Shown piece by piece: positions 16,306-64,000 of a DNA stretch of 64,000 nucleotides (its first letter is position 1; the number at the start of each line of letters is the position of its first letter). The position numbers and the translations under genes were made by a program. This DNA is from Schizochytrium sp. TIO01 (Eukaryota > Sar > Bigyra > Thraustochytrida > Thraustochytriidae), in the NCBI GenBank assembly GCA_004764695.1, contig SMSO01000031.1, positions 3,147,048 through 3,211,047 on the forward strand. Direction: 5' to 3'. Below the pieces are notes generated by a model, which worked only from the letters and a program-made list of their open reading frames with translations, had not been told where the DNA came from and ran no database searches.

Positions 16306-17730
16306 TTAAATAAATTGGGTTAAAGCTATGCCAAACGCGGATATGCTAGTCAATGGCTGCTGGAAATCAAGCGTAAATCTGTTTGAAGAAATCTTTCCGA
16401 ATTGCATGAAGAGTGTCTCCTGCAAACTTGAACCGTTGGAAGTGGGCCCTGTTCGTTCAACTAGTTGAAAGTTTTTTGAAGAAGCATGCTTGACCCGTCC
16501 ATGGAAATTAAGGCGATATTGACCCTGATGATACGTTGGAGAGCGATTAACGAGCATTGTGACTTTGTTAGATGAAAATTGTATGTCTTCTTTGCGATCT
16601 AATAGATGTTTCGCATGCTTCCGCAATTGGTTTGAGAGACGTCGTGCAACTTTCCTCGTTTTTTGCATACGTTGAGCGCACTGAATTTTACTATTGTTGG
16701 TGTCAATATTGACGAAAGCAACACCACTAACATCTTTATCGTAGTCCGGCTCTTCTGTTGCGTAGAGGCTTCCTGGACTCTGAGCAGAGTTTCCTTCAGA
16801 AGATGAGGAGTGCTGATCCTGATTTGCTGATACTGTTTGAAGGGTGTGAGGCGATTTATAGAGGCTTACCATTATACTTCGAGGAGTCATACCTTCTCCG
16901 AGCCGTTTGACTAGGGCTGTGCGCTCAAACTGAACTGCCAGAGCCTGGCCGAAGCAGTCATAGATAAAGAAGCTCCCTGAAGCCGCGAGCTCAACATTGG
17001 CCACATTCTCTCGGGCTACATCAATTAAAGCTTTTGATTTGGGACAGTATTCTTTACTTACATCGTAGATGCGTAGTCTATCTTTTCGGCGGTCACGTTT
17101 TGCAATCAACAAAAGCTCGAATTTTGTGAGACGACTACGAAGAGATATGTCATTTTGAGAAGCTGTGTCTAAATCAAACTTTTTACAGAGTCTACTTTTG
17201 TCGTGATCATCTTCCTCACGGCGTTCAGGGTCGGCCTCGGTCTCTAAAAAGAAAAAGAAAAATTCTCGTCCGGATACGCGATGCATAAAACTTCGTTCTC
17301 GCACGACCACACATCGAGTAAGGGGACTGAACTCACTAGTATTGCGGTGGAGAGCTGACTCTACCTCGATGTTTGACTCAATATCTCCTGCTGGAAAACT
17401 AAAGACACTTTCAGCTTTGTCATAAGAAAGTGAATGGTGTTCTGGTGAGGCTGGAATCTCCAAGTTGTAGTCCTGTGCATTGTCAGATTCTGGCTCAGTC
17501 TCTAAAGTGTGTTCCTCCTGATCATTCGCAAAATCATCTTCAAGATCAAGAAAGTCTAAGGTCTCTGTAGTGCTGCCTTGGAAAGCGCTCCCTATCTCTG
17601 ATCGAAAGGTTCTCACATTTAAAGACGAGTGCAAGGTAGATATTGACTCCTCTGTCTCTGGCAGTTCAAGAGTTTCAACTTCAACCTCATCGTCTGATGG
17701 AGAAAACAACAACCTCGGTGTTTTAGCCAT
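16306..17730 (-). CDS. Divergent Tubby-like protein
   Basis: A 474-residue protein with a C-terminal Tubby domain. The clearest part is near residues 395-474: NRSP, then YRLNFHGRVKHASSKNFQLVE, MQFGKISSNRFTLDF and SISAFGIAL. These align with the tubby signatures NFHGRV-QASVKNFQ, VMQFGRV--D-FTMD and LQAFAIALSSF. Earlier strands (FELLLIAKRDRRKDRLRIYDVS and FFIYDCFG) match the first half of the barrel loosely. Tubby domains bind phosphatidylinositol-4,5-bisphosphate at membranes and deliver cargo to cilia, which would suit a flagellated cell; that role here is inference. The N-terminal about 150 residues are acidic and disordered. The protein ends about eight residues before the usual SKLACE-type end, so the final strand looks shortened. 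The ATG at 17730 is the first of the frame. Confidence 0.85.
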   Translation of the reverse strand: MAKTPRLLFSPSDDEVEVETLELPETEESISTLHSSLNVRTFRSEIGSAFQGSTTETLDFLDLEDDFANDQEEHTLETEPESDNAQDYNLEIPASPEHHSLSYDKAESVFSFPAGDIESNIEVESALHRNTSEFSPLTRCVVVRERSFMHRVSGREFFFFFLETEADPERREEDDHDKSRLCKKFDLDTASQNDISLRSRLTKFELLLIAKRDRRKDRLRIYDVSKEYCPKSKALIDVARENVANVELAASGSFFIYDCFGQALAVQFERTALVKRLGEGMTPRSIMVSLYKSPHTLQTVSANQDQHSSSSEGNSAQSPGSLYATEEPDYDKDVSGVAFVNIDTNNSKIQCAQRMQKTRKVARRLSNQLRKHAKHLLDRKEDIQFSSNKVTMLVNRSPTYHQGQYRLNFHGRVKHASSKNFQLVERTGPTSNGSSLQETLFMQFGKISSNRFTLDFQQPLTSISAFGIALTQFI

Positions 17731-35610: not shown

Positions 35611-36693
35611 ATGCTCGGAGTCTTGACAAGACGTGCCATGCCCGCCGTGGCTACCGCCACCGCCCCTGCCGCGTGCGGTTTTGGTGGCTTGAGTCTTCGC
35701 ACTCAGGCTGCTGCCGCCGCAACCTCAAGGTTTACATCCACAATGGCAGAAGCTCGCCAGCGCTCCCGTTTGGAAAAGCGCAAGTCTCTCAGGAGAGCTT
35801 CCAATGACGCCAACGTTCCCGCTGCCGGCAAGAAGAGCAGTGCAATCTTCCTTGGTGGAGGCAAGATGGCAGAAGCTATGATCTCGGGTCTTGTGAACCC
35901 CGCTGAAGGCATCCCTAAGACTTTTGAAGTCTCCGCTGTGGACCCCTCAAAGGCCCGCAGAGATATCTTGACTACAGATTACAACATTGACACGTACGAG
36001 AACATCAGCTCTGCAGCTGAAGCCATCAAGGCCGCTGACCTTGTCATCCTCGCCGTTAAGCCGCGAACTGTGAATACCGTCTTTCAGCAAATCAAGAACG
36101 TTGTACCCAAGGAAAACCGTAACTTCACCGCCATCTCTATCGTCGCTGGCCTTACCATGGATCGCATGCGTAAGGGTCTCGAAATCGAAAAGGTCTGCCG
36201 TAGTATGCCCAACACCCCGTCAACCATTGGCGAGGGTATGACTGTTTGGACCTGTGACCCCAGCGTTGACGATAGCACTGAGAAGAAGATTAGCTCTCTC
36301 TTTGAGGCCTGCGGAGAGCAGGAGCGTGTTGATGACGAGGACATCCTTGATAGCTCTACCGCTATCAGCGGCAGTGGCCCGGCCTTCTTTTTAATTCTTC
36401 AGGAAGCGATGGTGGACAGTGGTGTGCACATGGGACTTCCTCGTGACCTTGCCACCCGCCTTGTTGAGCAGACCATGATTGGTACTGCCCACTACTCCTC
36501 TCTCTCTAAGAACCCTGTGACCATCCTCCGTAACGATATCACCTCCCCGGGTGGCACCACTTCCGAGGCTCTCTTTCACCTTGAGCGCGGTGCATTACGT
36601 ACGGTTGTCTCTGATGCCTGCTGGGCTGCCTTCCGTAAGAGCCGTGCTCTTGGTGGCAAGGAGTCCGACATTGGCCCCGAGATCAACCGCTAA
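35611..36693 (+). CDS. Pyrroline-5-carboxylate reductase
   Basis: Catalyses the last step of proline synthesis, NAD(P)H-dependent reduction of pyrroline-5-carboxylate. The 360 residues comprise an 80-residue leader and a full-length core. The core starts with a Rossmann loop, FLGGGKMAEAMISGL (about residues 79-93). It then has VKPRTV, RSMPNTPSTIGEGM and the C-terminal signature of the family: SGSGPAFFLILQEAMVDSGVHMGL, followed by DITSPGGTTSEALFHLE. The leader is rich in Arg, Ala and Ser without acidic residues at its start, like a mitochondrial presequence. A second Met (residue 45, MAEARQRS) could give a cytosolic form. The codon choice is C/G-ending, as in the R2 and cysteine synthase genes. 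The ATG follows CTTCTTCAAG, which could also be a 3' splice site. Confidence 0.97.
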   Translation: MLGVLTRRAMPAVATATAPAACGFGGLSLRTQAAAAATSRFTSTMAEARQRSRLEKRKSLRRASNDANVPAAGKKSSAIFLGGGKMAEAMISGLVNPAEGIPKTFEVSAVDPSKARRDILTTDYNIDTYENISSAAEAIKAADLVILAVKPRTVNTVFQQIKNVVPKENRNFTAISIVAGLTMDRMRKGLEIEKVCRSMPNTPSTIGEGMTVWTCDPSVDDSTEKKISSLFEACGEQERVDDEDILDSSTAISGSGPAFFLILQEAMVDSGVHMGLPRDLATRLVEQTMIGTAHYSSLSKNPVTILRNDITSPGGTTSEALFHLERGALRTVVSDACWAAFRKSRALGGKESDIGPEINR

Positions 36694-45130: not shown

Positions 45131-48100
45131 TTATACCTCCTCCATTGACATGTTGGAAATGAGTGTGCTACAAAAGCTTTCACGCTCGACGCGTGAAATA
45201 TAAGAAAGTTGTTGTAACTTCATCTGTAACATATCCGCCTCGTCTTGCATCGCCTTAATCTTCTTTTCTCGTCGCTGCAAACGTCTGAGAGACTGATCGT
45301 ACTTTGATTGAAGCTCAAAATTTGACGACTCAAGCTCACAAACATAATTTTCGAGTCGACTGAGCTCTTGGTCCGTAGTATACATTACCTTTGATTTGCG
45401 ACGTAGCTCCGCTGCCTCTTCTTTCGCTCGAATGAGCTGCATCTCACAGCACTTAAGTGCACGCCGATCCTCATCTGTTTGCATCTCGAGCGTTTCGTTC
45501 TCCTTTTCACGGGTTCTCAAAACCTCATGAAGCCTTGAGTTCTCTTCCAGTAGCGACTTGATTTTTGTCTTAGCACGTTCCTTGATCTGCAGAAGAACTT
45601 GACTGGACTCCTCCTGTTGAGCTTGGAGTTGTCCCACTTTATTCTCCTTATCGTGTATCGCAGAGACCATTTGATGGCTAAGACTCTCAGAGACACATTT
45701 GTACATTAATGCTCGCAAGCGCTCAACCTGTACACGCCATTGGCTCATGGCTTCAAACAAAGCTCGTTTTTCACGTCGAACCACCACTCGACGCAAGATG
45801 TTTCGGCGCACTCGCGAGTTATGGGCGTACTGTCTCCACAACTGCAAAGTTCTAGTAAGCCTCATTCGTCTAAAATGTCTACGCTGTGCCTTGGCTCGCG
45901 AAGTCTCTGATTTCCAGACTGCAAAAGATGCAATCAAGTGTCGCGAAGCTTGACGGCGGGCTGAAAGCTCATATAAACCCATCACTGTGCACCTGCCACA
46001 TACAAATGCTCTCCAAGCCTCAAAATGTCGGCGAAGTTTTCGCCTCGGATTAATTTGTCTTTTCCATAGAATTACTCGCGCTTGAATTACAGAAGTTCGA
46101 GCCTTCGTGATCTTGGCCCTGTTGCGCCAAGCAGTGAAGATTACACGCAAGTCTGATTTGCGACTCTCATAGCAATGCAGAGCCCATAATCTCAAACAAG
46201 AACGAAGGCTGAGAGGCTGAAATTGCACTATGCATGCCCAAATAGCATGGGCTGCTCGGTGACGATGTACCACTGTTCGAGAGTAGTTCATGAGACGCAC
46301 AGTCTCGCGCCATTTTGAAAATCCGCGTAGCATCCTAATCTTCGTGTTTGAAAGAAGTAAATGGGTCTTTTGTACGAGAGCACATAAAGAGGCTCTTCGA
46401 GAATTTTTGATAAACGTATACGCCTGCCAGTTTCGAAACGAAGTACGGCAAATAACAGTTGTGGACACGCGATGCCACTTATTCAGAGCCAAACTTTGAT
46501 GCTGTAAGCGTTGCATATAATTCTTCCATTGCGTGAAGTTCAAGGAAAGAATGTCTTTCGTGCAACATGCTAAACGTCGCAGGAAAAGGCGGCGAATAAA
46601 AATCTTCGCATGGACAAATGATGCCCAATGAGAAAAGGATTCGCGTAAAAAGACGCTATGTTCTGTTTGTAATCGCTGGCGTGTTACCCCCAGAATGAGA
46701 GCCAAGTTGTTACGTCTAAGAATTCGCGCCCAGGACTGGAAGGTGCGTCGTAAAAGTGCATCTTTAGATCTTCGTGTAAGAATAGCATAACGACTCCACG
46801 CAGTGAAGCTACGCGCAACATCAACCTTAGATAGCAAGGATTTGTTGTAGTTCCGCGCCTGGTTGTAACCTTCAGTTGCAAGGTCCACCATACCAAGAAG
46901 ACGCTGCTTTGCATTGTCAGCGCAACTGGCACGCCAAATATAGAAGCTTTTTCTGAGAAAATCATGTGATTCCTGCATTTCCCAAATGCGCTCAACAGAC
47001 ATCATGATTTGAGCATGGGAATATCGAACAGCTGCATGCTCGCGTAGTTTTGAAAATGCGCGGAAAAGATCAGCACGTCGCGTTCCCTGTCGATTGACCT
47101 GAGCAATCATTTGCAAGCCCAATGCCCTCGCTGCCATTTGCTTATTTTGAAATTGCACCTTGCGCAGTCGTTGAATTCCCATCATGAAATGGTACCATCC
47201 GTCAAAACACTGTTGCAACAATAGTCTTTGACGAAGGGTATAGGTTGCAGTCGCCCATTTTACATGCGTGTGGACCCAAGCAGAGCAGCTACGCCATTGA
47301 TGAAATGCTTTCGAAAGATGATATTTCCTCCACCAAATTACGGCTCGGCACACCATGAGCTGGTTAAGGATTCCTGGAAGCGACTTTTCACGGCGCACAT
47401 GAAAGGACTTGACATGGTCAACTAACCGTAGGAAAGCTACACGAACAGAAAGCTGGCGCTGGCGATGGGCTCCAAGTTGAACTGCAACCAAACCCAAGCC
47501 AACCACTGCTCTTATAGATTTCCAATTGTCCCAATATGAGCTACTAGACTCTTTCCTTGACTCAAGTTCTTCAGAATCCACCATTGCAAGATTATGGGCG
47601 TAATCAAGTTGCCCTTGCGCATAAACTACAACTCTTGCGAAAGCAACAAACCCCACGCGCATGAGACGTAGCCGCATTTGTTTCATGCACCTTCGAAGCT
47701 GAAGACCCCTGCGTGAAACGCGGTTCATCCATTCGCGACCCATTATTCCGCCAACTTGCTCGAGGTATTGCCCGATGCGCTCTTCTGCAATCGGAGACAG
47801 GGCACGTTGAGCTATAGTGACCGAAGCAACGCTTCTACCTGACCTGTTTTCTATGTGATATAATTGTTGTCCGGGATGAGCACGGTTAGCAAGTGGATGG
47901 CCGCGCACAAGGGCGATACGAACTTTTACGAACTCCCGATCTACGCTGGCAAGGAGTGCTACATGTTTTTGCAACATAATTTCGGCGCTCGCCGCCGAGT
48001 TAGAACATGCAAGATCGATCACTCGAGAGACGTCACTGTGGACTGCTTGCGACCATCGATTCATAAGAAGCTTTGTGAACGCGACGCGCAACTCGTGTTG

Positions 48101-51100
48101 CCTGCTGTACCGGACTACTCGTGTGAGAAATCGCCCAAGGATAGACTGTTTTCGTGTGCGACAGCGCAGAATCTGAAAGCCCCGGCGAAGTTGTAATCGC
48201 CGTACTACACTTGTTACGCGGGTAAACCTTATTCTTCGCTGATGGTCATAACGCAGTAAGCATTTGAGTTTGTGAAATCCATATTGAAGGTTAGAACGGC
48301 GCTCAATAGATCGAGCACTCGCGAAAATGGTCGATAAAATCATGACACGCCGACTAAAAACATGTGCTAACCAGGAGGACCAAGCTTGTCTCATTTGCAG
48401 CTTCCTCCAGTTCTTTACACAACGACTCAGTGTACGTTGCTGTATTGCATGCTGCGCAAGACGATGCAGAGCGCTCCGACAACAATACTGAGAGTAAGAC
48501 TGACAAATAGAATGTATGCACGATTTAGCTCGCAATTGGCGTTGTACAAAACCCAACCAGGAATCTAACCCTTGTTTGAGCCAGCGTCTGCGTGCATGCC
48601 GCAATAGACGCATTATTAGCAGTATATTTCGCGATGACCTATAAGTTGCAGCCCGCCAACGGCGAAGACTTTCTTTGCATTGAAGAAACTTCCAATTTTT
48701 CAGAACACGAAAAAGACGCAATTCCCGTAGCCGGGAAATCTCACAAAACTCTTGCCAAATTCTGATTGAGTTTGCGAGGTGTATTATCACAGTTTTCTGG
48801 TCTAAATTGTTTAGTACACTTGCAAGAGCGTGCAATCCGGAGTTCCCCCTTAAGTTCCGAAAAGCAGTTGAGAGTTCTACACGTTCGCAAGTGATTTTCC
48901 ATTGTAGAATAGCATCGATTTGTTTAGAGCGCAGGGATGCGTGGGTAGTCAGCACTTTAAATGCACTGCGCACAGCATTGTGACGAGTTCTATCAAAAGT
49001 AGGGAGTACTCGCGCTAAAATGAGGGTTCGCTGTTGTTCCTTAATACGGGAGCGATTGGTAAAATCTCTCCAGAGGGTAAAGCTTGATCTTACCTGAGTT
49101 GCAATTCTCCTACATGAAAGTTTTCGAAGCGTCCATGACAGCATGAAACGAGCTTGGCCAACCCGAAAGCTCAACTCTTTCCAGTATGAGAATGTTTGCT
49201 GTGCTAGAGCTCTAAGTTTTCTCTGCAGAATTAGGCGGAGCTTTCGCTGACGAGTTGTTTGCGCACCCCATGATACAAGCACCTGTCTTATATTTCGATG
49301 GCGCATCTTCGCTGACAAATCAGAAATTCGTTTGCCTTGTAAATGAGCAAGATACCAATCTCCAAACGTATCGTTTAACACTTTTCGCTCCTGTCGCTTT
49401 TTAAACTCGGCAACTGAATTATTGAGGTAAAATGTACGATGTACAACATGTCTCCAAGCCTGTAAATGGTAATGTAGACAACGATGCTTCCGTTTGCGAC
49501 AGATGATTCGCGTAGCTCGTTGACGAAGCATAGTAGCTTGTACCACTCGTGAATTCCAGGCAACAAATATTCCACTCAAAACCAAGGAGCGAGACACCAA
49601 AGTGATGTTGTTCCAATGATGAAGTGACTGTTTTAGCTTGAAGCATTGAACACGGTCATACATGCGAGATAACTGTACTACACCCCGCTGCTGCGGATTT
49701 TGAATGGTATGTTCATGGTACAACACGGTTTGTGCAATCGGTGTAAGTGCACGAGAAAGCTTCCTGAATGCGACATGAACCTTCTTGAGGTAAAGTCGAT
49801 GTAAAACTCGCCATAATATGACGCTGTTCAGCAAATATTGCCGCCGAAACACCAAATCCAGCTTCCAGCGCGAAAGGGCAACCCCAAGATTTCGTTTGAA
49901 GCATTTGGCGCATGCACGTCTAAGGGCGAGTTGCCGCCGTGTAGACAGAGATGTTACTCGAACCCAACGAGAAAACGCTAGACGAGTAAATGCATTCTGG
50001 GATGCTCTCACTAAGTGATGCAACAATAAACTCTTATGATTTTGGATAGAGACGTATTTTTGCCACCTCAGCCATGCCCCTGCTTGGAGACCTTGAGCTC
50101 TGTGCCGAAGTACTGATTTTAATCGACGTTGCTTAGCATTATGCCTTTGTAATAATTTAAAGGCTTGCCGTTGATCTGCCAGGTTGAGTGAAGATTGAGA
50201 CTTTTTGAATATTTGTTCCATTCGCACCAAAACATCCTGCCTCAGCAAGTACAGGTGCCATTTTCTCATGGACTGATGCAAAATGTTTTTTTGAAGAATC
50301 TTCCATAAACGTTGTAATACAAGTTGTTTAGATGTTGCCTCCTTTGCTTGGAGTTGCCAAAAAGCAAGAGTCTGACGTCGGGTTCTAGCATGTTGATCTG
50401 ATGAAATACGAGCGGATAGCGACTCGGCACGGCGATGACGTGAAAGGACATCCTTCCATGTATAAAAGGCACGCGGTACTTTCTGCCGCTGCATTCTACG
50501 CAGAACTCTAAATATTTTATACGCATTGCGTTGCCGCTCTGTATACGACTTCCACAAGCGAAAAGATTCAGCTAAGGTAGATTTTAGCATCCGTTTTACG
50601 ATAAGCAGCCGTGTATTCTTTCTTTGTTCAACTAGAGCTGTCCATGAAGAAAAGGCCTTAGAAAGACCTCGAAAACGCCAGCGTTGTATCACTATTTCAG
50701 CTGCATTTAGATTGGTTCGAGATTTATAGGCGTAGTGCAACCATTTGCGCCATGCGTATACGATGCGATGGTGCCTCCAGTTCCGAAGTGTAGTCTTCAA
50801 AATTCTCAATCCTCGGTGTTGGCCTCGTGCAGCTTGCAGAGCTTGGTACCAACTTAAAAATGCTTTGCTCAGACGAGTTGATCTCCAATGTGCCAAGGTT
50901 TTCTTGAGAAGACCTGCTCGATGTGAAGTAAAGCACCATACCTTTAGAGCTCTTTGCAGACGCAAGCGTCGCCATATTACAGCTACCTTTCGGATAGCTT
51001 GCTCTGTTTTCCCTCCCCAAGCCCCAGCAAGACGAATACGCTGGAAAGACTCTCTTAAATATCGAAGGCGCCACACAGCTAAGATTCGCCCAACCTGCTG

Positions 51101-54100
51101 GATATTCCGAACATTTGCAACAAGCTTTGACCACGCATAAGCTTGCGCACGGTATGCATATCTTTGTAGTCGTGAGCGAACTATTTGCAGGCCGTGAGCA
51201 AGGCGATCACCGACATGGGCCCATTTGCGCAAGATATTGTACGCAGTCCGAATACGAAGCTTTTGCCAGCGTTTGATAATTCTTGATAAAACTTGGTCTC
51301 TCCCAGAATCTGCCCTGGTAGCCATAACCCATGCAGAAAATCCATGTCGGACAATATTACGTAGGTGTCGAGCTATTAGACGCCGAATAAGAATTACTCG
51401 CCTTGTGTCGAGGTCGAGTTGCGAACGCCAACGCTGAAACGCCTGGGTTTTTTGACGTAGCTGATAATGGCTAAATACAGAAAAAAGGGTCATCTCATCC
51501 CGCAATAGCGTGTACCATTTTCGAAACGCCATGCGAAGCTGCAAGTGATACCAACGCCTGCATACCGCAAACAAACGGCCATAACGCGAATACTCAAAAT
51601 TTGCAAATAGAATCCAAGTTCGAAACGCGCGGGCTATCGCATTATGTGCCCAACGTTTTGCTACCTGGTTTGCAACTCTCCCTAAATGAGCGCTTCGCTG
51701 CACCCATGCTCGCCACTTTGAAAACGCACTGCTACAACGTTGTCGCTGTGCTGCACGCCAGTGCAAAATAACGGTTCGTGCAGATGACTTTTGCAAGGAG
51801 TCAAGTGAGCGTCTCTGCAACGCAGAGGCCTTCCATTTATTTAGTGCTGCGGCAATTAGCCCTCGTTGCCATCGCGAAAGTGTACGGAACAACTGTTGAG
51901 ATGCTATCTTCCTTTTCAAAGCTGACTTACTGAAAGTCTTCCAGGTAGAAAATGCGCGAAATGCATTGAGGTGGGTCAAGCGCGTAAGAGCTCTAGAGAG
52001 GAGATACTGCACTCGTTGCTGGTGAAAGGAATGGCTTTTAAAGGCGTGGAAGCCATCCAACATGAGACAACGAGACATCTTTAGAACTACTTTACGCATT
52101 TGTTGTTGCCGTCGCGCACTCTCATCCGACACGAGCTTCCAATGGATAAAGGAAGCCTCCACACGCTGCTCTGGGACTCTATGAGCGAGAGACCAGGTCC
52201 AAATCATCATTGCTCCTCGTAATTGATTTGTTTGATGAATAGCTCCTGTCCGGATACCTTGATGAAGACTTTGCATAGACCAGGTTAGAAATGCACGATG
52301 CAGTTGGGCGTATCGCCAGCGACGTAAAACCCGAACAAGTTTGGCATGAGCATATATTTGGCTCCGCGTCTCTTTGCAATAGCATTTAAGACGGGTCCAT
52401 GCTGCAAAAAGTCTGGCATTGCGCCAACAAACAAGTGTTCGTTGCACCAAGTAAGATAGGTGTCTACGATGTTGAGCGAATGTACGGATCTGTAAGAATG
52501 CACCTTTCAAGGAGCCTTTTTTAAAGGTCTCCCATAAAGCTAAAGTAGATGCAACACGCAATCGAACTCTTGCAGCAGACTCGGTAGTACTTCTACGCGA
52601 GACCTTGAAAGCCCGCAGCTTGGCAAAAACAATACGAAGAATATAGTGCCGGGATATTGTGCTTAATCTTTGCAGAGATTTCCACAGATCATCCACATAC
52701 TTCCACTTGCAAAACTTTTGACGAATACTGTGGCGAGTGAGCCGTCGTATCAAAATACTGGCACCGATTCGATGTGTTCTTCTAAGCTGCACGGAAGGAT
52801 GCGCGTTTGCTCGTAAACGAGACATAGCCTCACGTAAGATATCTCTGTGAACTGCCACACATTTTTGCATGATCCACTTGATAGTAGACTCTCGAAGCTT
52901 TGCATTGTCATAGCCGTTTCGAAGACGATTCATTGCGTATCGTAACATGTAAAGGCGGTGCCTTGAGCATAATTGGGAAAGTGCATGCGCTCTATGCATT
53001 TGCTCAATTTTCCTTACAGCAAAATCAGTACACGTATTTTCAATTGAGTCTGCAAGCTCGTCTGTTCGGCGTTTTGATCGAAGTTCATCCCATTTTCGAA
53101 AGGCATGGAATGAACGAGCTTGATTCCACATAGTCGCATGCAAGTGGAGATGTAGGAAAGCTCTTTGAGTACGCCTCTTCTGCGATGAATGTATAGCCTG
53201 ATAAAGGTACTTAAATCCAGCCTGTTGAAGACGCGTGCGATGGCCTAGTTCTAGCTTCTGGATTCGATGATTAACAAGATCAAGTACCTTTCTGGTACGG
53301 TCCAAAGCACCATTTGCTTGATCAATATCAGCTTCTGCAATATTGTCAATTGTAAGAATTCGAAAACCGTACGCCAGAAAACGTAACCTCCGAGCTCGTA
53401 AAGTAGAGCCCAAAATCGACTGTCGGCGCAATTTCTCTTGAGCTACTAAACGAATACGGTTAAACGCACGGAACTTTGAAAGCTTTCGAAATCTGGCTTC
53501 TAGCTGTACGATAAGTACATGAGCAAGCTTTGACTGAAAACGATCCTGCGCATCAAGTCTACTCTCATGTTCAGCAGCACGCAATAATTTTGTGAAGACA
53601 TTTCTTAAGACCCGCAAACGCCATCGTTGGTGAATATTCTGTAACATGCGTGCACCTGCTCTGAAGAGACGCACCTGCTCTGAAGAAGGCGGAAACTTTG
53701 CTTCAGGCTTTAGAGATTCCAGTGAAGGGTTTGACTGTAATAGAGGCGGTGAAAACAGCGCCACTGAGCGTTGTCGCAATGCCTGGAACCCTCTGCCAAG
53801 CATGCGTCTAGCACGTCGTTCCTCTGCACGAGCTAGCATCTGGGCTCCTGCTTGAATTGCCATTCGTGTTCGCTCTTCTAAAGCGATTTCAATTTGAGAT
53901 CGCAGTCGATCAGCAACCGCAGCAGCAGCAGAAGCCGTTGCAGCACTAATGGTAGAGTAGGTAGAACCCGTGGTTGAGATGACTGAACGATTCATACCAC
54001 TACTTGAAGAGCGACTGCGTATCAAAGAGATAGTCTTCAAACCCTGCCGTTTTCGCTCATGTCGCCTCATCCACGCAAATCTCTTCCAAGCAGCCCATGC

Positions 54101-55570
54101 GCGGATTAATTCGATTGAGGGGGGGCTAGGGTAGTAATCAAGAGGGGATGTGCTAAGTTCCCCATAGCTTACAGGTGTAGAGGAACTAGTTTCCTCGTCC
54201 TCATCCGCATCTTTTACATCGAGGTCCAGATCTGAAAATTGATGTTGTATTGGTTGACTCCCCACAGCAGCTGGTAGCCGTTTTTGAGAGTCTTTATGCA
54301 CGCGCCCAGTGTGGTCAATATGCATCCAACTCGAATCAGCGGTACCGTAGTCTGCACTACGCGTCCGAGGCTCATTACGTTGCTTGAGTGGCGATGGAGC
54401 AAAAGTGACCTGACCACGTCGATACGACCTATTCATACTCCCCTTGGAAAATAAAAAGTCATTAAAATCTGAGCTTGGTTCTTGTGCTAAGTCTGATGAT
54501 GTGTCCGACTCTTGCTCGTGAAGCTTCTCACTGATCGCAGCGCTCACTTTGCTTTCAAACGTACGAGGAGACCCATTCCAGCTGACGCGATCAATTGCTC
54601 TTGCAACAACTGAACCGGGTGATACTGGCGAAGATGATGATGAGGATAGTGGTGATAAAGGAAGTTTAGCGGAGACAAATTCAGCACCTGAAGGTGTCAC
54701 AGGATTTAAGCCGAGCTCATATTCTACATCCTTTCGCAGCTGCTCTGCTGCAATTTGCAAAGGGCTCTGGCTCCTTTGACGTCTGCGAATTTCACTCTTG
54801 CTTGTTCCCATCAGATTAAGCGAGTGTGTTGATGATCTATCATATATTTCATTAGCCTGCTCCATAACATCAACTTGCAGACCATCCTTCTCCATATTCT
54901 TATCCTGATCTGTATTCTGATTGTAGTCTTGATCAAAAGTTGACGCATGAGGTAGTCTTTCATCCGCAGACCTCCCATGAGGTCTCTTTGAAACTTCATA
55001 TACACCTTTGCGATGTTGCTGGTCTTTCTGTTGCTGCTGTGTTTGCTGTCGATGTGGCGTTGCGTTTCCCAAAGGTCTAGTTGACTTTAGTATAGAGCTT
55101 TTGTTGGCCATGCCCATGATACCTGTAGAAGCATGAACCTTTCTGCGATCTAAAATTTGAGGCCTACATTGGTCTTCATTTGCATGTGTGTTTCTGATTC
55201 TCAGCGAGCGATTCATCTCCAAATCATCGCTCGCAGATAGGCTCAGAGAAACACGCCTCGGTTCACGAAGACCCGAACTGTCTTTTGAGGAACGAGGAAA
55301 ATTAGAGTTGGGAGTTTGCGTTTTCAATAATAAGTTTTCCTCTGACAAGGAGTTTGCTGTTGCATGTGTTGTCGAATTCGTCGCATTAATAGTTGCATTT
55401 GACAAAGACAACAAGCCCAACGTAGAGGACTTGGCGGGTAAAAACGGATCACTCGAAGTTGATGAGGCGCCAAAGTCCGCCTCGGGCTGGAACGACACTT
55501 TCGGAAGTCGTTCGCGGCCCAGCCCAGTGGCCCATTGATCAAATGACTGCCGCCGAGGTTGCCCAGACAT
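45131..55570 (-). CDS. Giant Sfi1-like centrin-binding repeat protein
   Basis: A 3479-residue protein (about 410 kDa) in one 10.4-kb frame. Residues 1 to about 490 are Ser/Gln-rich and disordered. From about 490 to 3290 the protein is a chain of basic helical repeats with the Sfi1 signature [F/L]xxW, for example AFRKW, AFSTW, SFIHW, TFQSW and HFEAW; I count about fifty such motifs. Each Sfi1 repeat binds one centrin, forming a filament used in spindle-pole duplication and in contractile fibres. Residues 3290-3479 are a Leu/Glu/Lys coiled coil. Yeast Sfi1 (946 residues) and human SFI1 (about 1240) have about 20 repeats, so this one is over twice as long; ciliates have giant versions. The ATG at 55570 is the first in frame, although the frame is open about 18 codons upstream without an ATG. 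It diverges from the repeat protein at 58597. Confidence 0.92.
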   Translation of the reverse strand: MSGQPRRQSFDQWATGLGRERLPKVSFQPEADFGASSTSSDPFLPAKSSTLGLLSLSNATINATNSTTHATANSLSEENLLLKTQTPNSNFPRSSKDSSGLREPRRVSLSLSASDDLEMNRSLRIRNTHANEDQCRPQILDRRKVHASTGIMGMANKSSILKSTRPLGNATPHRQQTQQQQKDQQHRKGVYEVSKRPHGRSADERLPHASTFDQDYNQNTDQDKNMEKDGLQVDVMEQANEIYDRSSTHSLNLMGTSKSEIRRRQRSQSPLQIAAEQLRKDVEYELGLNPVTPSGAEFVSAKLPLSPLSSSSSSPVSPGSVVARAIDRVSWNGSPRTFESKVSAAISEKLHEQESDTSSDLAQEPSSDFNDFLFSKGSMNRSYRRGQVTFAPSPLKQRNEPRTRSADYGTADSSWMHIDHTGRVHKDSQKRLPAAVGSQPIQHQFSDLDLDVKDADEDEETSSSTPVSYGELSTSPLDYYPSPPSIELIRAWAAWKRFAWMRRHERKRQGLKTISLIRSRSSSSGMNRSVISTTGSTYSTISAATASAAAAVADRLRSQIEIALEERTRMAIQAGAQMLARAEERRARRMLGRGFQALRQRSVALFSPPLLQSNPSLESLKPEAKFPPSSEQVRLFRAGARMLQNIHQRWRLRVLRNVFTKLLRAAEHESRLDAQDRFQSKLAHVLIVQLEARFRKLSKFRAFNRIRLVAQEKLRRQSILGSTLRARRLRFLAYGFRILTIDNIAEADIDQANGALDRTRKVLDLVNHRIQKLELGHRTRLQQAGFKYLYQAIHSSQKRRTQRAFLHLHLHATMWNQARSFHAFRKWDELRSKRRTDELADSIENTCTDFAVRKIEQMHRAHALSQLCSRHRLYMLRYAMNRLRNGYDNAKLRESTIKWIMQKCVAVHRDILREAMSRLRANAHPSVQLRRTHRIGASILIRRLTRHSIRQKFCKWKYVDDLWKSLQRLSTISRHYILRIVFAKLRAFKVSRRSTTESAARVRLRVASTLALWETFKKGSLKGAFLQIRTFAQHRRHLSYLVQRTLVCWRNARLFAAWTRLKCYCKETRSQIYAHAKLVRVLRRWRYAQLHRAFLTWSMQSLHQGIRTGAIHQTNQLRGAMMIWTWSLAHRVPEQRVEASFIHWKLVSDESARRQQQMRKVVLKMSRCLMLDGFHAFKSHSFHQQRVQYLLSRALTRLTHLNAFRAFSTWKTFSKSALKRKIASQQLFRTLSRWQRGLIAAALNKWKASALQRRSLDSLQKSSARTVILHWRAAQRQRCSSAFSKWRAWVQRSAHLGRVANQVAKRWAHNAIARAFRTWILFANFEYSRYGRLFAVCRRWYHLQLRMAFRKWYTLLRDEMTLFSVFSHYQLRQKTQAFQRWRSQLDLDTRRVILIRRLIARHLRNIVRHGFSAWVMATRADSGRDQVLSRIIKRWQKLRIRTAYNILRKWAHVGDRLAHGLQIVRSRLQRYAYRAQAYAWSKLVANVRNIQQVGRILAVWRLRYLRESFQRIRLAGAWGGKTEQAIRKVAVIWRRLRLQRALKVWCFTSHRAGLLKKTLAHWRSTRLSKAFLSWYQALQAARGQHRGLRILKTTLRNWRHHRIVYAWRKWLHYAYKSRTNLNAAEIVIQRWRFRGLSKAFSSWTALVEQRKNTRLLIVKRMLKSTLAESFRLWKSYTERQRNAYKIFRVLRRMQRQKVPRAFYTWKDVLSRHRRAESLSARISSDQHARTRRQTLAFWQLQAKEATSKQLVLQRLWKILQKNILHQSMRKWHLYLLRQDVLVRMEQIFKKSQSSLNLADQRQAFKLLQRHNAKQRRLKSVLRHRAQGLQAGAWLRWQKYVSIQNHKSLLLHHLVRASQNAFTRLAFSRWVRVTSLSTRRQLALRRACAKCFKRNLGVALSRWKLDLVFRRQYLLNSVILWRVLHRLYLKKVHVAFRKLSRALTPIAQTVLYHEHTIQNPQQRGVVQLSRMYDRVQCFKLKQSLHHWNNITLVSRSLVLSGIFVAWNSRVVQATMLRQRATRIICRKRKHRCLHYHLQAWRHVVHRTFYLNNSVAEFKKRQERKVLNDTFGDWYLAHLQGKRISDLSAKMRHRNIRQVLVSWGAQTTRQRKLRLILQRKLRALAQQTFSYWKELSFRVGQARFMLSWTLRKLSCRRIATQVRSSFTLWRDFTNRSRIKEQQRTLILARVLPTFDRTRHNAVRSAFKVLTTHASLRSKQIDAILQWKITCERVELSTAFRNLRGNSGLHALASVLNNLDQKTVIIHLANSIRIWQEFCEISRLRELRLFRVLKNWKFLQCKESLRRWRAATYRSSRNILLIMRLLRHARRRWLKQGLDSWLGFVQRQLRAKSCIHSICQSYSQYCCRSALHRLAQHAIQQRTLSRCVKNWRKLQMRQAWSSWLAHVFSRRVMILSTIFASARSIERRSNLQYGFHKLKCLLRYDHQRRIRFTRVTSVVRRLQLRRGFQILRCRTRKQSILGRFLTRVVRYSRQHELRVAFTKLLMNRWSQAVHSDVSRVIDLACSNSAASAEIMLQKHVALLASVDREFVKVRIALVRGHPLANRAHPGQQLYHIENRSGRSVASVTIAQRALSPIAEERIGQYLEQVGGIMGREWMNRVSRRGLQLRRCMKQMRLRLMRVGFVAFARVVVYAQGQLDYAHNLAMVDSEELESRKESSSSYWDNWKSIRAVVGLGLVAVQLGAHRQRQLSVRVAFLRLVDHVKSFHVRREKSLPGILNQLMVCRAVIWWRKYHLSKAFHQWRSCSAWVHTHVKWATATYTLRQRLLLQQCFDGWYHFMMGIQRLRKVQFQNKQMAARALGLQMIAQVNRQGTRRADLFRAFSKLREHAAVRYSHAQIMMSVERIWEMQESHDFLRKSFYIWRASCADNAKQRLLGMVDLATEGYNQARNYNKSLLSKVDVARSFTAWSRYAILTRRSKDALLRRTFQSWARILRRNNLALILGVTRQRLQTEHSVFLRESFSHWASFVHAKIFIRRLFLRRLACCTKDILSLNFTQWKNYMQRLQHQSLALNKWHRVSTTVICRTSFRNWQAYTFIKNSRRASLCALVQKTHLLLSNTKIRMLRGFSKWRETVRLMNYSRTVVHRHRAAHAIWACIVQFQPLSLRSCLRLWALHCYESRKSDLRVIFTAWRNRAKITKARTSVIQARVILWKRQINPRRKLRRHFEAWRAFVCGRCTVMGLYELSARRQASRHLIASFAVWKSETSRAKAQRRHFRRMRLTRTLQLWRQYAHNSRVRRNILRRVVVRREKRALFEAMSQWRVQVERLRALMYKCVSESLSHQMVSAIHDKENKVGQLQAQQEESSQVLLQIKERAKTKIKSLLEENSRLHEVLRTREKENETLEMQTDEDRRALKCCEMQLIRAKEEAAELRRKSKVMYTTDQELSRLENYVCELESSNFELQSKYDQSLRRLQRREKKIKAMQDEADMLQMKLQQLSYISRVERESFCSTLISNMSMEEV

Positions 55571-58596: not shown

Positions 58597-61500
58597 ATGT
58601 CAACCTCCAAGGCATTTGCAGGTGTTGACCCCATTATGCGTCGCACCATTGACCAGCGCGGCGAGGTCGCTGAAGAGTTGACCCGTCGTGCTAGCTGGAG
58701 ATCTGCAAAGGAACTGATTGCAGAGGAAGCTCAGCGCCGTGATGTTGAGACGAAGACCACAATTGTGAATGAACAACTTCAGCGCACCATGAGCCAGAAA
58801 ATGGCATCCCGCATGCTTGATGAGGAGAAACAACGTCGAGTTGTACTGGCCATGGCTTCGGATGTGCTTGCCGAGCTCGAGCGTCGTGCCAACGCTGCTG
58901 AAGCTGATCGTGCTATGACCGAAGAGTTTGAGCGTCGTGTAGCCCAGGAGTCTGCCCTTCAGCAACAGGAAAATTCCGAGCGCACCGCCAACCAGATTCG
59001 CGCCAACGAGGACATGGACAATGAGAAGAAGCGTCGTGAATCTGTTGGTCTCCCCACCCAAGAAGCCGCATTTGGCCAGCTCTCTTGGTTTGCCAACGAA
59101 GTTGTTCGCGCAATCAACAAAAGCGCAGCACTTCTTGGCGAAGATGAAGAGCGCCGTCGTCGCATGATGGAAGATCTTCGTTCTCAGGTCGCTGGTGACC
59201 TTCAACGTAAGCTTAATGCTCGTAAGGCAGACCGTGGATCCGAGGCTGAGCGCGTACGGCGCATTGCTAGTGACAAGAAGATTGAGGTTATGTGCGAGCT
59301 TACTTCTCGTGCCGATCGTAAGCTCGCCAGCGAGCTCTCCGAGGCCGAGCGCCGCCGCCTTGTTGCAGCAAATGAGGACTTTCCCTACGGACGAACCTCT
59401 GAGAACAAGTCTCAGATTCTTGAGAAAATCCATTCACGTCAGAGCCTTCTCACTGCCCTCAAGGCCGAAGAGGACGCCCGCAAGGAATATGCTTTGGCTG
59501 ATCTATACCATAAGGTTGCTGAGGAGGTTTGCTTCCGGGTTAACAAAGCAGCAGCACTCGTTGCCCAAGAGAACGAGCGCTCTGAACGTGTGGCCCGTGC
59601 TAAGTTTATTGGTAATGTTGTTCCTGAGATTGAGGCACGTGGTCGTTTCAAGAGCATCTTGGAGCAAGTGCGGGCGGCACAAGAGGATCTGACCAAGGCT
59701 ATGCCTGAATCTCTTCGGCTCCGTGCTGAAGACCCCAACGTAGGGTCTTTGCTCGAAGATATTATTCGTCATGGCAATCAACAAAAAGCTCGCCGTCTTG
59801 CTGACGAAGAGAAAACTCGCCGTACGGCTGAGAACAGAAAGCTTGATGTTCTTGACGACCTACAGCGTGTTATCGCGCAAAAGAACGTCTCAAGCGAGGT
59901 CTCTCTTGAATCTGCACGTGCAAACCACATGCGTAAGTTCGAATTGGCGCGTGAGCAGGCTGCTGCGGAGGCCCGTTGGAAGGATCTTAGCTGCTTCATT
60001 GCTCGCGAGCAGTCTGAGGAAAAGAACGATGCTCCTCACTCTCCCACGCTCAAAGAAATCCTTGAATATGTTCGTTCCGATGTGGAACGTCTTGGAGCGC
60101 GTCGTGAAGTTGCTCAGGCCGTCAAAGAGGAACAAGAGCGCCGCACGCAGGCTGCTCGTGGCGAGGACGTCTTCCCTGGTGTGATTCGCGCCGTGAACCA
60201 GCGCGAAGCCACTCGTGCATGCATCTTAGAACAGCACCAGCGTGTTGCACGTCTTAAAGGTGAAGAGGTCCTCTCAGAGTTGTCTCGACGTGCTCTCCAG
60301 AACGCTGTTCGCGCACAGACTGAAACAGAGAGATCTTACCGTGAGGCCGGCATGAAGGACGAGCTTCTTCGTCGATCCAACTCAGCCAACTTTCGCGAGG
60401 TCTTGGACGAAATTCAACGTGAGAGTTTACGCAACGAGGTACTTCGCCAGATGGATCTTGAACAATCTGAGCGGGTCAATCGTGACCGTCTCGGATGGGT
60501 TATAAGTGACTTGGAGCGACACTTGAACCGTCTGCGCGCTGCCAACGATGCCGAAATGGAGCGATGCCGCCGCGTTGGAGCCAACAAAACTCGTGCAGTA
60601 CTTGACGAACTCGTTCGCTACCATAACCGAATGATTGCCGATGGGCTTGTTTGTAATGAGCAAGCTCGTCGTGTCCGTGACATGGATGTGGAGCGGAACC
60701 GTCGTGCATCTTTCCTTCAATTTTACGACATTCTTGAACAGGTTGAGCGCAAGTATGCGCAGCAAGTCGCAATTCGTGACGCTGAACTCGAGCGCGACGC
60801 TCGTATGACTCAGGAGACCTTTGCCAAGGTGCTTACCCAGCTCATTCGCACAGCTGCTCAAAAGGACGCGGACTTTGCAATGGATGCCGAGCGTGTTCTT
60901 CGAATGGCTCAGGAAGCTTTTGAAGCAGTCAACGTAGAGTTTAAACGCCGTGTTAATGCACAGGCTGCTGACAAAGCTGCTGACCAGGAGCGTCTTGATC
61001 GCATTCGTCGTTTGAGTGAGGATGCTTCAGTGCTTGTGAACGTGATGGCGTCTCCGATTCCAATGGTTCACGAACAGCTTCGCCGTAAGGCCTCGTGGAA
61101 GCAATCTAAGGCAGCTTACGAAGAGGAGCAGACCCAGGCCGAGGTCCGTGAGCGCGGAGTATCAGTTCGCGAGGAGCTTCTTCGAATTGCAGCTGTCAAA
61201 GAAGTCGAGGCTGCAATCGAGCTTGAGCGCCAGCGACTTCTGCACATTGAGCGTACTCGCGCTGTCCATGAGGAAATGGCACGTGCGCGCAGCGTCAAAC
61301 TCATTCATGCTGCCATTGAGCAGGAACGTAAGGAACGCATTGCGACTGCAGCAACGACTGCTATGAAGTTTGCCCTTACTGCAGCTAACTACCAAAGGGA
61401 TATTCCTTGTGCAGCAGCAACCCTGAGACGCCAGCGTGAAGAACGGCAACTCATCTACGAGGAGCAAAATCAGCAACAGGTTTCCTCGCCAGTGTCTAGG

Positions 61501-62496
61501 GCAAAGGTATCATCGTTGGAGCGCCTTTTGACTCAGTCAGAAAACAATGCAGTTCCCATTGTTGAGGAGCAGCACCGCCGCATGATGAAAGATCTCGATC
61601 AGGGAAGCGATGAGCATATCGCACGTCTCATGAACAGGCATTTGGCAAGCATGCTTTCTGATGAAGAGAAGTCTCGCAGGGTCTCTGAGATGCTAGAGGA
61701 GGACTCAGCTGCCGAGTTTGAGCGCCACCGTGCACAGCTAGAGGCTGCTTTCGAGATCAGCGTCGAGAAGCATGCTCGAACTCAGGCTGTTGCAGAAAGT
61801 TCAGAGAACCTCGATGAGGAGCGCCGTATCCGCCAGGAGTGGGCCAAATATGTATCAGACGAAGAACGTCGTCGCCGTATTTATGAGGCAGACCTTGGAT
61901 TCACGAACACTCGTCCTCGCCCTGGTCACCTTGTTGCTTTGCTTTCTGCTGACTGCGATCTCTTTGACTTTACTCTGGTGGATGGCAGTGACACCAACGA
62001 ACTCGACCAGGACTGGTCTGAGCTGTCTAACAACCTTTGCGTATCTCCCCGTGAGATCCGTCTCGAGAACGATCTCACATCAAGCATGCGATCTGCATTG
62101 GAGTTCTACCAGGAGCAGCAACGCCGGCGCATTGAGGATAAGGAGTGTGAGCTTGCTATTGACCTTGAGCGTAGCTTTAACAAAAGGCGCGCGCAGCATG
62201 AGCAAGACCTGGAGCGATTTAGCCGTGTCGAGCATGCTAAGCTGCAAGAGAGCATTAGCTCTCTTGAGCGCATGCATGCAGTAAACAGCGCAAAACGTAT
62301 GGCTGATCTTGAGCGTGATCGCCGCATGCTTGAACGCACTTACGTTGAGAAGATGACTGCTGACACCAAGCGTGTAAACCAGCAAAAGGCAATTCGTGAT
62401 ATGGAAGAGGAACGCACCCGCCGTATTAATGAGAGTACTGAATTTCAGGAGGCCTTACAACGTGCTATTCGTGCCGAATTTGAGAGTTCCAAGTAA
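58597..62496 (+). CDS. Large helical protein built of 33-residue repeats, unknown family
   Basis: A 1299-residue, highly charged, almost entirely helical protein that I cannot place in a family. Its hallmark is a unit of 33 residues beginning E-R-x-R-R, with Val at position 14, Asp/Glu at 17, Leu at 18 and Arg at 20. Back-to-back units run at 77-109, at 185-217 and 218-250, and at 699-731, 732-764 and 765-797; a 44-residue unit (33+11) occurs just before 699. Thirty-three is three hendecads, which suggests a long coiled coil or filament. The start (DPIMRRTIDQ, then TRRASWRSAKELIAEE) is echoed near residues 820-850 (SPIPMVHEQ, RRKASWKQSKAAYEEE), so the protein may be an internal duplication. 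A non-helical acidic island (about 1105-1150) precedes the last helical part. ATG at 58597 in AAGAAGATG. Confidence 0.88.
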   Translation: MSTSKAFAGVDPIMRRTIDQRGEVAEELTRRASWRSAKELIAEEAQRRDVETKTTIVNEQLQRTMSQKMASRMLDEEKQRRVVLAMASDVLAELERRANAAEADRAMTEEFERRVAQESALQQQENSERTANQIRANEDMDNEKKRRESVGLPTQEAAFGQLSWFANEVVRAINKSAALLGEDEERRRRMMEDLRSQVAGDLQRKLNARKADRGSEAERVRRIASDKKIEVMCELTSRADRKLASELSEAERRRLVAANEDFPYGRTSENKSQILEKIHSRQSLLTALKAEEDARKEYALADLYHKVAEEVCFRVNKAAALVAQENERSERVARAKFIGNVVPEIEARGRFKSILEQVRAAQEDLTKAMPESLRLRAEDPNVGSLLEDIIRHGNQQKARRLADEEKTRRTAENRKLDVLDDLQRVIAQKNVSSEVSLESARANHMRKFELAREQAAAEARWKDLSCFIAREQSEEKNDAPHSPTLKEILEYVRSDVERLGARREVAQAVKEEQERRTQAARGEDVFPGVIRAVNQREATRACILEQHQRVARLKGEEVLSELSRRALQNAVRAQTETERSYREAGMKDELLRRSNSANFREVLDEIQRESLRNEVLRQMDLEQSERVNRDRLGWVISDLERHLNRLRAANDAEMERCRRVGANKTRAVLDELVRYHNRMIADGLVCNEQARRVRDMDVERNRRASFLQFYDILEQVERKYAQQVAIRDAELERDARMTQETFAKVLTQLIRTAAQKDADFAMDAERVLRMAQEAFEAVNVEFKRRVNAQAADKAADQERLDRIRRLSEDASVLVNVMASPIPMVHEQLRRKASWKQSKAAYEEEQTQAEVRERGVSVREELLRIAAVKEVEAAIELERQRLLHIERTRAVHEEMARARSVKLIHAAIEQERKERIATAATTAMKFALTAANYQRDIPCAAATLRRQREERQLIYEEQNQQQVSSPVSRAKVSSLERLLTQSENNAVPIVEEQHRRMMKDLDQGSDEHIARLMNRHLASMLSDEEKSRRVSEMLEEDSAAEFERHRAQLEAAFEISVEKHARTQAVAESSENLDEERRIRQEWAKYVSDEERRRRIYEADLGFTNTRPRPGHLVALLSADCDLFDFTLVDGSDTNELDQDWSELSNNLCVSPREIRLENDLTSSMRSALEFYQEQQRRRIEDKECELAIDLERSFNKRRAQHEQDLERFSRVEHAKLQESISSLERMHAVNSAKRMADLERDRRMLERTYVEKMTADTKRVNQQKAIRDMEEERTRRINESTEFQEALQRAIRAEFESSK

Positions 62497-62824: not shown

Positions 62825-64000
62825 CTACAAAGAGGGTTGCGGTGAGTCTGGTCGATCTACAGAAGCACTGATGCTACGCGCAGCATTGCGTTGTATTGCT
62901 GCAACATCTGTGGCATCCATGAAAGCAACAGCAGCATTTGAACCTTTACGATGAGATATCGTTCCATGGTCAGATGATGGATCAGAATCAGTACGCACCT
63001 TGCCATCCTTGCCGATTGCAAATCCTGCCGAAGCAAGAACTTGCTCAAAGGTGGCTTCACGTACAGCCCAATCCTTCATTATTTCCTCGCGAGCCTCGTC
63101 GTTGAGACCTTCGCGAGTATATACTTCGTCCTCAAGAAGCCGCATCCAGTTATCACGATTCGTAGCAATCTGAATACATGGGTCTGAGGAGTTTGGGAGT
63201 AGGGTAGACATAGCAAAGAAAAGCGGTGCCACGATAAAGTCAATAAAGTTAATTGACATCTCTGCCTGGCTAGTTGTATCCCGATCCATATTAGGAGAAA
63301 CTTCCCAGCCGTTGGCGCGTTCAAGGTCACCTTGTGCATAAAATTCTTCGCAGACAAGATCTTGCCAGCGCTTAGAGCACGCCCAAGATCTTGTAGGGTT
63401 ACTAATATCGGAGCAGTGTAAGATTGACTTTGCAATCAAGCTACGCTCTTCTATATTCATGGAAGAGGTTGGCTCATCCATATGACGCACGATGCAGTCT
63501 CTTAATTCGCCTGTTAGGTCGAAATGGCAAGTCATGTCTGTGGCGAGAATGCAATCTAGTACAATTTGACGAACACGCGTAACGCTTGCTTCGTCTAGAT
63601 TGCACAAAATGTTCGTTGTATTGCTCTCAAACATACTGAACGTGCAGGCACAATGGTGGCTTTCTAGAACAGACCTACCTTCATAAAGCATAGCCAATTC
63701 TGTTTTAGCCTTCACTTGAAACGCATTGTTAAGACCAGGGTGTTCAAGGTCGTGGCAAAACGCTGCAATAGTAAGTGCGAACGCGTGCAAGTCGTCTAAG
63801 AACTCGCAACCGCGCATAGTAGTTAGCATACAGAAGGTACCTTGCAAGACATCACAAGCATGATCGTAATTGTGGTATGGATTGTGATGCATCGTCATGC
63901 CTGCCTCCACACGCTCGACAAAGGCGACGAGCCTATCAGCAGGGACAGAAAACTTCGAGTCGGCGCCCATGGTGCGGAACATAAAGGACACAAGGCTTGT
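62825..64000 (-). CDS. Class I 3',5'-cyclic nucleotide phosphodiesterase, catalytic domain (5' end outside window)
   Basis: Hydrolyses cAMP and/or cGMP. The frame is open to the window edge, so the N-terminus is missing; about 390 residues are visible. The metal-binding signatures are complete: YHNYDHACDV (HNxxH), CHDLEHPGLNN (HD) and HCSDISNP, whose Asp matches the PDE4 metal ligand. The usual SQ-x-GF block before FIDFIV reads E-M-S-I-N-F here, so the invariant purine-binding Gln seems replaced by Ser (63254-63256), though a Gln lies four residues earlier. The tail after the domain has R-K-G-S, a PKA-type site. Any regulatory domain (GAF, REC, membrane) would lie to the right of the window. 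Substrate preference cannot be told. Confidence 0.93.
   Translation of the reverse strand, partial: TSLVSFMFRTMGADSKFSVPADRLVAFVERVEAGMTMHHNPYHNYDHACDVLQGTFCMLTTMRGCEFLDDLHAFALTIAAFCHDLEHPGLNNAFQVKAKTELAMLYEGRSVLESHHCACTFSMFESNTTNILCNLDEASVTRVRQIVLDCILATDMTCHFDLTGELRDCIVRHMDEPTSSMNIEERSLIAKSILHCSDISNPTRSWACSKRWQDLVCEEFYAQGDLERANGWEVSPNMDRDTTSQAEMSINFIDFIVAPLFFAMSTLLPNSSDPCIQIATNRDNWMRLLEDEVYTREGLNDEAREEIMKDWAVREATFEQVLASAGFAIGKDGKVRTDSDPSSDHGTISHRKGSNAAVAFMDATDVAAIQRNAARSISASVDRPDSPQPSL

Follow-up and report, generated by a model that had tools for sequence, protein, structure and literature searches.

Helical proteins built from 33-residue repeats are already known. GvpC forms a helix of such repeats, 49.5 Å each, that lies along a repeating protein lattice (available portions of PMC9994262 and PMC10185304). 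Yeast Sfi1 has a long helical region with centrin-binding motifs of about 33 residues each (available portions of PMC8622359), and perilipin 4 carries 33-mer repeats of three 11-mers in a long helix that acts by its length (available portions of PMC5889406). SF-assemblin, a protist helical rod of about 36 nm, repeats every 29 residues, as four heptads and a skip residue (available portions of PMC8435291). Here, we analyzed a 64,000-nucleotide stretch of Schizochytrium sp. TIO01 DNA (contig SMSO01000031.1, positions 3,147,048 to 3,211,047 of the forward strand), hereafter the window, whose coordinates are used throughout. It carries an intronless gene for a protein with recurring 33-residue, predicted helical units, the motif of which has no name.

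58597..62496 (+): gene in a single open reading frame (ORF) for the 1299-residue repeat protein (ORF call; 55% identity to Hondaea FCC1311_024682 over 99%).

The frame runs from an ATG at 58597 to a stop at 62496 and has 1299 codons. Its product, the window protein, was compared with four relatives (P0002 to P0005, described below) using a training-free BLOSUM62 autocorrelation over 170 lags, with 500 shuffles per protein. The z score at lag 33 was 12.0 for the window protein and 11.8, 12.1, 9.5, and 10.1 for P0002, P0003, P0004, and P0005, respectively, whereas the highest z reached by the shuffles at any of the 170 lags was 4.2 to 4.5 across the five proteins (4.5 for the window protein). 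Lag 66 gave z = 5.6 in the window protein. The original prediction, made from the DNA letters and their ORFs, had proposed a periodicity analysis as a check on its 33-residue units; the peak is present, and the recurrence exceeds chance.

A 33-column matrix, seeded with the six units named earlier and iterated until it converged, found 22 units in the window protein (726 of 1299 residues, 56%), a count that is therefore self-trained. All six named starts (77, 185, 218, 699, 732, and 765) are among the 22. Applied to the relatives, the window-trained matrix found 21 units in P0002, 21 in P0003, 19 in P0004, and 16 in P0005; shuffling was confined to P0002 among the relatives, and in 200 such shuffles the matrix found 0.035 units on average and never more than 1. 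A scan of all six frames of the window gave no unit scoring above 12 outside the repeat gene. A looser fixed pattern derived from the motif counted 13 units in the window protein and 15, 9, 10, and 10 in P0002 to P0005, with means of 0.05–0.15 and maxima of 1 or 2 in shuffles. The units start at residues 11, 44, 77, 110, 185, 218, 372, 405, 512, 545, and 589 (units 1–11) and 622, 655, 699, 732, 765, 844, 991, 1024, 1173, 1206, and 1239 (units 12–22), arranged as follows.

58627..59022 (+): units 1–4, in tandem at 33, residues 11–142 (matrix).
59149..59346 (+): units 5–6, residues 185–250 (matrix).
59710..59907 (+): units 7–8, residues 372–437, with a predicted helix break at 377–380 inside unit 7 (matrix, AlphaFold2).
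60130..60327 (+): units 9–10, residues 512–577, with a predicted helix break at about 520–527 inside unit 9 (matrix, AlphaFold2).
60328..60360 (+): 11-residue insert, residues 578–588, lengthening a 33-residue spacing to 44 (matrix, spacing).
60361..60657 (+): units 11–13, residues 589–687, making 110 residues together with the 11 that follow (matrix, lagged sums).
60658..60690 (+): 11-residue insert of the ExxRR type, residues 688–698, lengthening 33 to 44 (matrix, spacing).
60691..60987 (+): units 14–16, residues 699–797 (matrix; predicted single helix 597–807).
61126..61224 (+): unit 17, residues 844–876, the lowest-scoring of the 22 (matrix).
61567..61764 (+): units 18–19, residues 991–1056 (matrix).
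62113..62409 (+): units 20–22, residues 1173–1271 (matrix).

Over the 83 units of the window protein, P0002, P0003, and P0004, the motif consists of E1 (84%), R5 (86%), V14 (59%), L15 (46%), an acidic residue at position 17 (57%), a large hydrophobic residue at 18 (92%), R20 (93%), and A27 (71%). Between the window protein and its relatives, identity was 71% at positions 1, 5, 14, 15, 18, 20, and 27, compared with 37.5% at the remaining unit positions and 40.5% outside the units, and 55 of 105 columns at these seven positions were invariant in all five proteins, compared with 33 of 396 elsewhere in the units; the seven positions were chosen from the motif, partly with the relatives, and the contrast is accordingly not blind. 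From these alignments, we take it that the motif is maintained beyond mere inheritance.

The protein contains 179 arginines and 175 glutamates, 37% of its residues are charged, and pairs of E with R or K three or four residues further on number 164, compared with 90 ± 7 in shuffles. The charged share and the E-to-R/K pairs, together with a low predicted template modelling score (pTM) and the lack of confident packing in the models described below, would suit a single-alpha-helix spacer, in which charge-stabilized free helices keep their ends at a set distance and the repeat is a by-product of the expansion of an E/R helix. We consider such a spacer unlikely. Positions 14, 15, 18, and 27 are 59%, 44%, 62%, and 67% identical, compared with 37.5% elsewhere, which goes beyond what a bare spacer needs, and R20 and E1 recur as position-specific residues at the frequencies given above, not as interchangeable charges.

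The spacing of the units follows steps of 11. Among adjacent spacings in the relatives, 38 of 73 are exactly 33; of those that are not, 14 of 35 are multiples of 11, with about 3 of 35 expected, and in the window protein the count is 3 of 8. The multiples seen are 44, 66, 77, 110, and 154, and the independent events are fewer than these counts because the proteins are related. A spacing of 44, read in the original prediction as 33 + 11, is confirmed, but it occurs twice in the window protein (545 to 589 and 655 to 699), not once. Each adds 11 residues, and the two inserts resemble, by eye, an additional first hendecad. The other window spacings (75, 79, 107, 147, and 149) mostly span linkers that contain proline, and a loop there would interrupt the register. 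Only 3 of the 17 prolines lie within units, although units make up 726 of the 1299 residues.

Longer repeats were sought by lagged local sums, a procedure without a significance test. Lag 110 gave the best match in the window protein (residues 492–694 against 602–804), P0002, and P0003; in the window protein it corresponds to a super-repeat of 33 + 33 + 44 residues at residues 492–804 (60070–61008, +). The best lagged match of P0005 was at 103, and P0004 contains near-identical tandem modules at 107. The lag-110 autocorrelation z was 3.4 in the window protein, which is inside the shuffle range, 6.8 in P0002, and 6.3 in P0003; the 110-residue super-repeat is therefore clear in the relatives and suggestive only in the window protein. 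Self-BLAST missed even the obvious modules of P0004, giving no match off the diagonal, and hence was uninformative. From the near-identical modules of P0004, it seems that rod length changes by whole modules.

AlphaFold2 predicted helices at 526–594 and 597–807 when residues 498–832 were modelled (window segment with P0001–P0004), with a mean predicted local distance difference test (pLDDT) of 79 and pTM 0.26. A model of residues 100–1299 (window protein with P0002–P0005) contained helices only, including one at 528–807, with mean pLDDT 59 and pTM 0.27; being of low confidence, it was used solely for placing helices and breaks. The longest helix predicted measures 211 residues (32 nm) in the model of residues 498–832 and 280 residues (42 nm) in that of residues 100–1299, the weaker of the two. 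In the latter, breaks fall near 151–157, 261–268, 347–349, 368, 377–380, 476–484, 520–527, 808–821, 933–935, and 958–989, and within 1100–1158.

In a coiled coil, hydrophobic residues are expected every 3.5 or 3.67 residues or so. In 99-residue windows with alanine counted, the top peak was instead at 87.5–88 degrees (4.1 residues, 33/8) in all five proteins (z 6.1–9.7); without alanine, the 88-degree peak led, or tied in P0003, with z 4.9–9.4. Any 33-residue repeat gives peaks at 33/m, and the unit determines which of them is strong. At the heptad period (103 degrees), z was −0.9 to 1.6 in the five proteins (−0.1 with alanine and 1.4 without for the window protein). Shorter windows of 33 residues were applied to the window protein, P0002, and P0005, and with these the 88-degree peak led in two of the three.

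These results bear on a self-assembling fibre, in which copies of the rod would pair or bundle alongside one another, each offset by a multiple of 33 residues (5 nm) or of 110 residues (16.5 nm), and would form a filament with striations, for example a flagellar root or cortical fibre. With spacings in 11s, all units face the same side of an 11/3 helix, arginine and glutamate balance each other, and steps of 11, 33, and 110 are available for stagger. The best hendecad a/d/e/h seam reached a permutation p of 0.03 with large hydrophobics, and the 98-degree component had z up to 5.9. With alanine included, however, the seam was not significant (p = 0.13) and the top period in all five proteins was 33/8, not 11/3 or 7/2; the Pfam scans found no striated-fibre family. 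We regard the fibre as possible but tentative. The composition of the unit as three hendecads, claimed in the original prediction, is supported by the spacing in 11s; a plain hendecad coiled coil is not clearly supported, given the weak seam and the 33/8 period.

Our preferred reading, to which we assign a probability of roughly 0.4, is that the protein is a chain of long helical rods with short hinges between them. Each unit likely forms one in a series of near-identical docking sites, about 5 nm from the next, for a partner that recurs along the rod. The rods are those predicted by AlphaFold2. Because the hydrophobics recur mainly every 4.1 residues and a helix turn takes 3.6, each unit would present contacts on all sides of the helix, and over the length of one unit the hydrophobic stripe would make about one circuit of a straight helix. 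This geometry would suit small partners that clasp the helix, or a lattice of several packed helices, better than a two-stranded coiled coil. E-to-R pairs one turn apart would lend stiffness to the free helix. Docking is what we infer from the periodicity, and self-assembly is a close rival to it. As regards the filament or scaffold role suggested earlier, the unit and its pitch hold, and the role itself stays putative.

Several observations weigh against docking sites on a continuous rod, in addition to the non-blind choice of motif positions. The pTM values of 0.26–0.27 are too low for the AlphaFold2 models to indicate how the helices pack. Some units lie outside an unbroken helix, because the breaks at 377–380 and 520–527 (the latter in both models) fall in units 7 and 9; glycines are not excluded from units (13 of 25). 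The 98-degree component (z 1.5–4.8 with alanine, 2.1–5.9 without) ties with 88 degrees in P0003 when alanine is omitted, and its presence would still allow a coiled coil. When the windows were shortened to 33 residues, the top peak of P0002 lay at 119.5 degrees, not 89, and the window protein showed a small additional peak at 103.5 degrees (z 2.2). The contact residues of GvpC (L4, F11, L12, R19, L30, and F33) fit the unit poorly, with a best circular fit of p = 0.54, and a mask of the Sfi1 consensus AX7LLX3F/LX2W gave p = 0.31.

Downstream of unit 19, a stretch with pLDDT below 50 (residues 1102–1161) includes a conserved tail.

61948..62052 (+): low-confidence, probably disordered tail, residues 1118–1152, with FxxV ... 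Wxx(L/I) ... C(V/L)SP (in 5 of 5 proteins).

The second motif reads W(S/T)x(L/I), and the residue before its W is acidic in four of the five proteins. These motifs resemble Atg8/LC3-interacting motifs, and in the docking reading the tail (FxxV, W(S/T)x(L/I)) would connect the scaffold to an adaptor, perhaps Atg8. Patterns of the FxxV/WxxL type are common, with 14 in the repeat protein, which counts against that step; because they are so common, it is conservation alone that argues for a function of the tail.

The relatives were recovered by three protein searches, each of which scored the roughly 8000 candidates sharing most words with the query, and which yielded five proteins. P0001, which differs from the window protein at 6 of 1299 residues, was taken to be the window gene itself. 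The protein of Hondaea fermentalgiana, FCC1311_024682, is P0002 (1295 residues, 55% identity over 99%); Hondaea is a thraustochytrid, and this is the sole relative under a thraustochytrid name. As the best named match, it would make a labyrinthulomycete the most likely source of the window. P0003 (1370 residues, 36% over 95%) is labelled Durusdinium trenchii. Two jgi proteins complete the set: P0004 (1240 residues, 31% over 69%) and P0005 (1286 residues, 38% identical to the window protein in alignment), the latter recovered only by searching with the core of P0003 (47% over 98% of the core). The family may well be larger, since each search was confined to about 8000 candidates and the first two missed P0005. 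The core of P0003, whose label is that of a dinoflagellate, is 45% identical to the Hondaea protein and 47% to P0005. These identities suggest either contamination or a wider family. Apart from the one thraustochytrid protein, the relatives found so far are a few sequences without a placement or with a doubtful label. Among viral contigs, a single-protein search that reaches close relatives only gave 3 pattern matches and no relative; prokaryote genome contigs gave 593 pattern matches, none of them a relative by tblastn. A literature search returned no paper naming FCC1311_024682, FCC1311_02468, or SCF082_LOCUS31931. The Hondaea locus is absent from the main text, as far as available, of an Aurantiochytrium zoospore-settlement proteome (PMC12221091); Table 1 of that paper uses different identifiers, under which the protein could be listed.

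Searches of curated families gave the window protein no Pfam match up to E 0.1 and no NCBIfam match up to E 1. When four proteins were scanned, the only matches under E 0.01 were Coleoptericin (0.00079) and PARG_cat_microb (0.0099), in one protein each, neither of them P0001. Among core fragments, the best match was PcfK (0.016, window fragment, below its cut-off), and Cep57_MT_bd (best E 1.8) was the only family matched by two of the five. We judged all of these to be spurious matches within helices of biased composition. PDB was searched by sequence with three queries: the protein itself gave nothing, its profile a best E of 0.038, and the profile of the core a best E of 0.14, which we judged to be chance. 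Foldseek with the core model, run against PDB only, found no match, as expected of a bare helix. A strong match to a characterized coiled-coil family, named beforehand as the result that would speak against novelty, thus has no credible candidate in Pfam, NCBIfam, or PDB. The statement that no named family has this motif stands to that extent; the 33-residue helical repeat as such is not new, being known with other motifs in GvpC, Sfi1, and perilipin 4.

The gene upstream was examined for a possible relationship.

45131..55570 (−): divergent giant neighbour with tryptophan repeats, Sfi1-like by motif, context only (ORF list, FxxW-like counts).

This ORF has 3480 codons; it is listed from a GTG, and the ATG follows as codon 2. 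It had been described as head-to-head with the repeat gene: the two are divergent, but their ORF starts (55573 and 58597) lie 3 kb apart, and the Sfi1 likeness is one of motif, with 60 FxxW-like sites (shuffles: mean 23.4, maximum 35) and no match in a Pfam scan. Two parts of the neighbour served as controls for the hydrophobic period: its heptad-like C-terminus peaks at 103 degrees (z 7.2 with alanine, 4.5 without) and lacks the 33/8 peak, and its tryptophan array peaks at 98.5 and 88 degrees.

The divergent pair, the common lag of 33, and the shared 88-degree peak would agree with the repeat protein being a diverged, centrin-binding Sfi1-type array, kin to the neighbour, that has lost its tryptophans. 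A relation between the unit and the tryptophan repeats looked promising from the shared spectrum and was unconvincing in permutation tests. Five profile tests gave p values of 0.16, 0.06, and 0.25 and, with selected columns omitted, 0.03 and 0.11; the best register was one for two of the tests and another for the other three, a disagreement that also weighs against docking sites of this known type. The repeat protein contains no FxxW-like site (1.6 expected in shuffles), the window matrix detects no unit in the neighbour, and the consensus mask, as given above, does not fit. We find such an origin very improbable.

Other genes in the window include a cyclic nucleotide phosphodiesterase (PDEase_I, E 7.6e-82) at 62825–64000 (−), convergent with the repeat gene. 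A protein kinase followed by an EF-hand pair lies at 5987–8665 (+), the arrangement of a calcium-dependent protein kinase; a second protein kinase lies at 19285–22236 (+). Further genes encode a ribonucleotide reductase small chain (14024–15190, +), a Tubby-family protein (16306–17730, −), and a pyrroline-5-carboxylate reductase (35611–36693, +).

Judged from sequence, the repeat family is real, conserved, and unnamed, with a precise geometry and a putative role. A long helix that keeps a strict molecular pitch usually serves as a ruler or scaffold, and the likely host group has cell structures, the bothrosome and the ectoplasmic net, with few known parts. It is conceivable, if somewhat doubtful, that the family is a eukaryotic scaffold of a new class, namely a helical ruler with hinges and some 22 docking sites at 5 nm, built of 10-hendecad modules, lengthened module by module in some lineages, tethered by its tail, and organizing a periodic structure such as a flagellar root, the bothrosome, or the ectoplasmic net. 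Steps of 5 nm and 16.5 nm would be the pattern predicted for electron microscopy.

Thraustochytrids produce lipid droplets in bulk. A giant amphipathic helix on lipid droplets might be considered on that ground, since the 33-mers of perilipin 4, as three 11-mers each, act by length (available portions of PMC5889406) and the 98.18-degree moment of the repeat protein reached p = 0.02 for large hydrophobics only. With alanine, the moment gave p = 0.16, and the repeat protein is E/R-rich with inserts and hinges, whereas perilipin 4 repeats, as described in those portions, are indel-free, enriched in Thr, Gly, and Val, and have a lipid-droplet face; this role seems highly improbable. SF-assemblin, in the text cited at the outset, shares with the repeat protein the form of a protist helical rod of repeats. 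The original contrast between the two is sound: the repeat protein has its peak at lag 33, lag 29 is outside its top 25 lags, and 99-residue windows show no heptad peak. Sfi1 differs in its tryptophan motif, which the repeat protein lacks, and gives no convincing profile match, although the Sfi1-like neighbour and the repeat protein both carry the 88-degree hydrophobic component. The repeat protein had no GvpC match in the Pfam and NCBIfam scans, libraries that we assume to contain a GvpC model. As far as GvpC is described in the cited text, the two are alike in being helical with a 33-residue pitch, and the repeat protein is set apart by its eukaryotic origin and by its 22 units with hinges.

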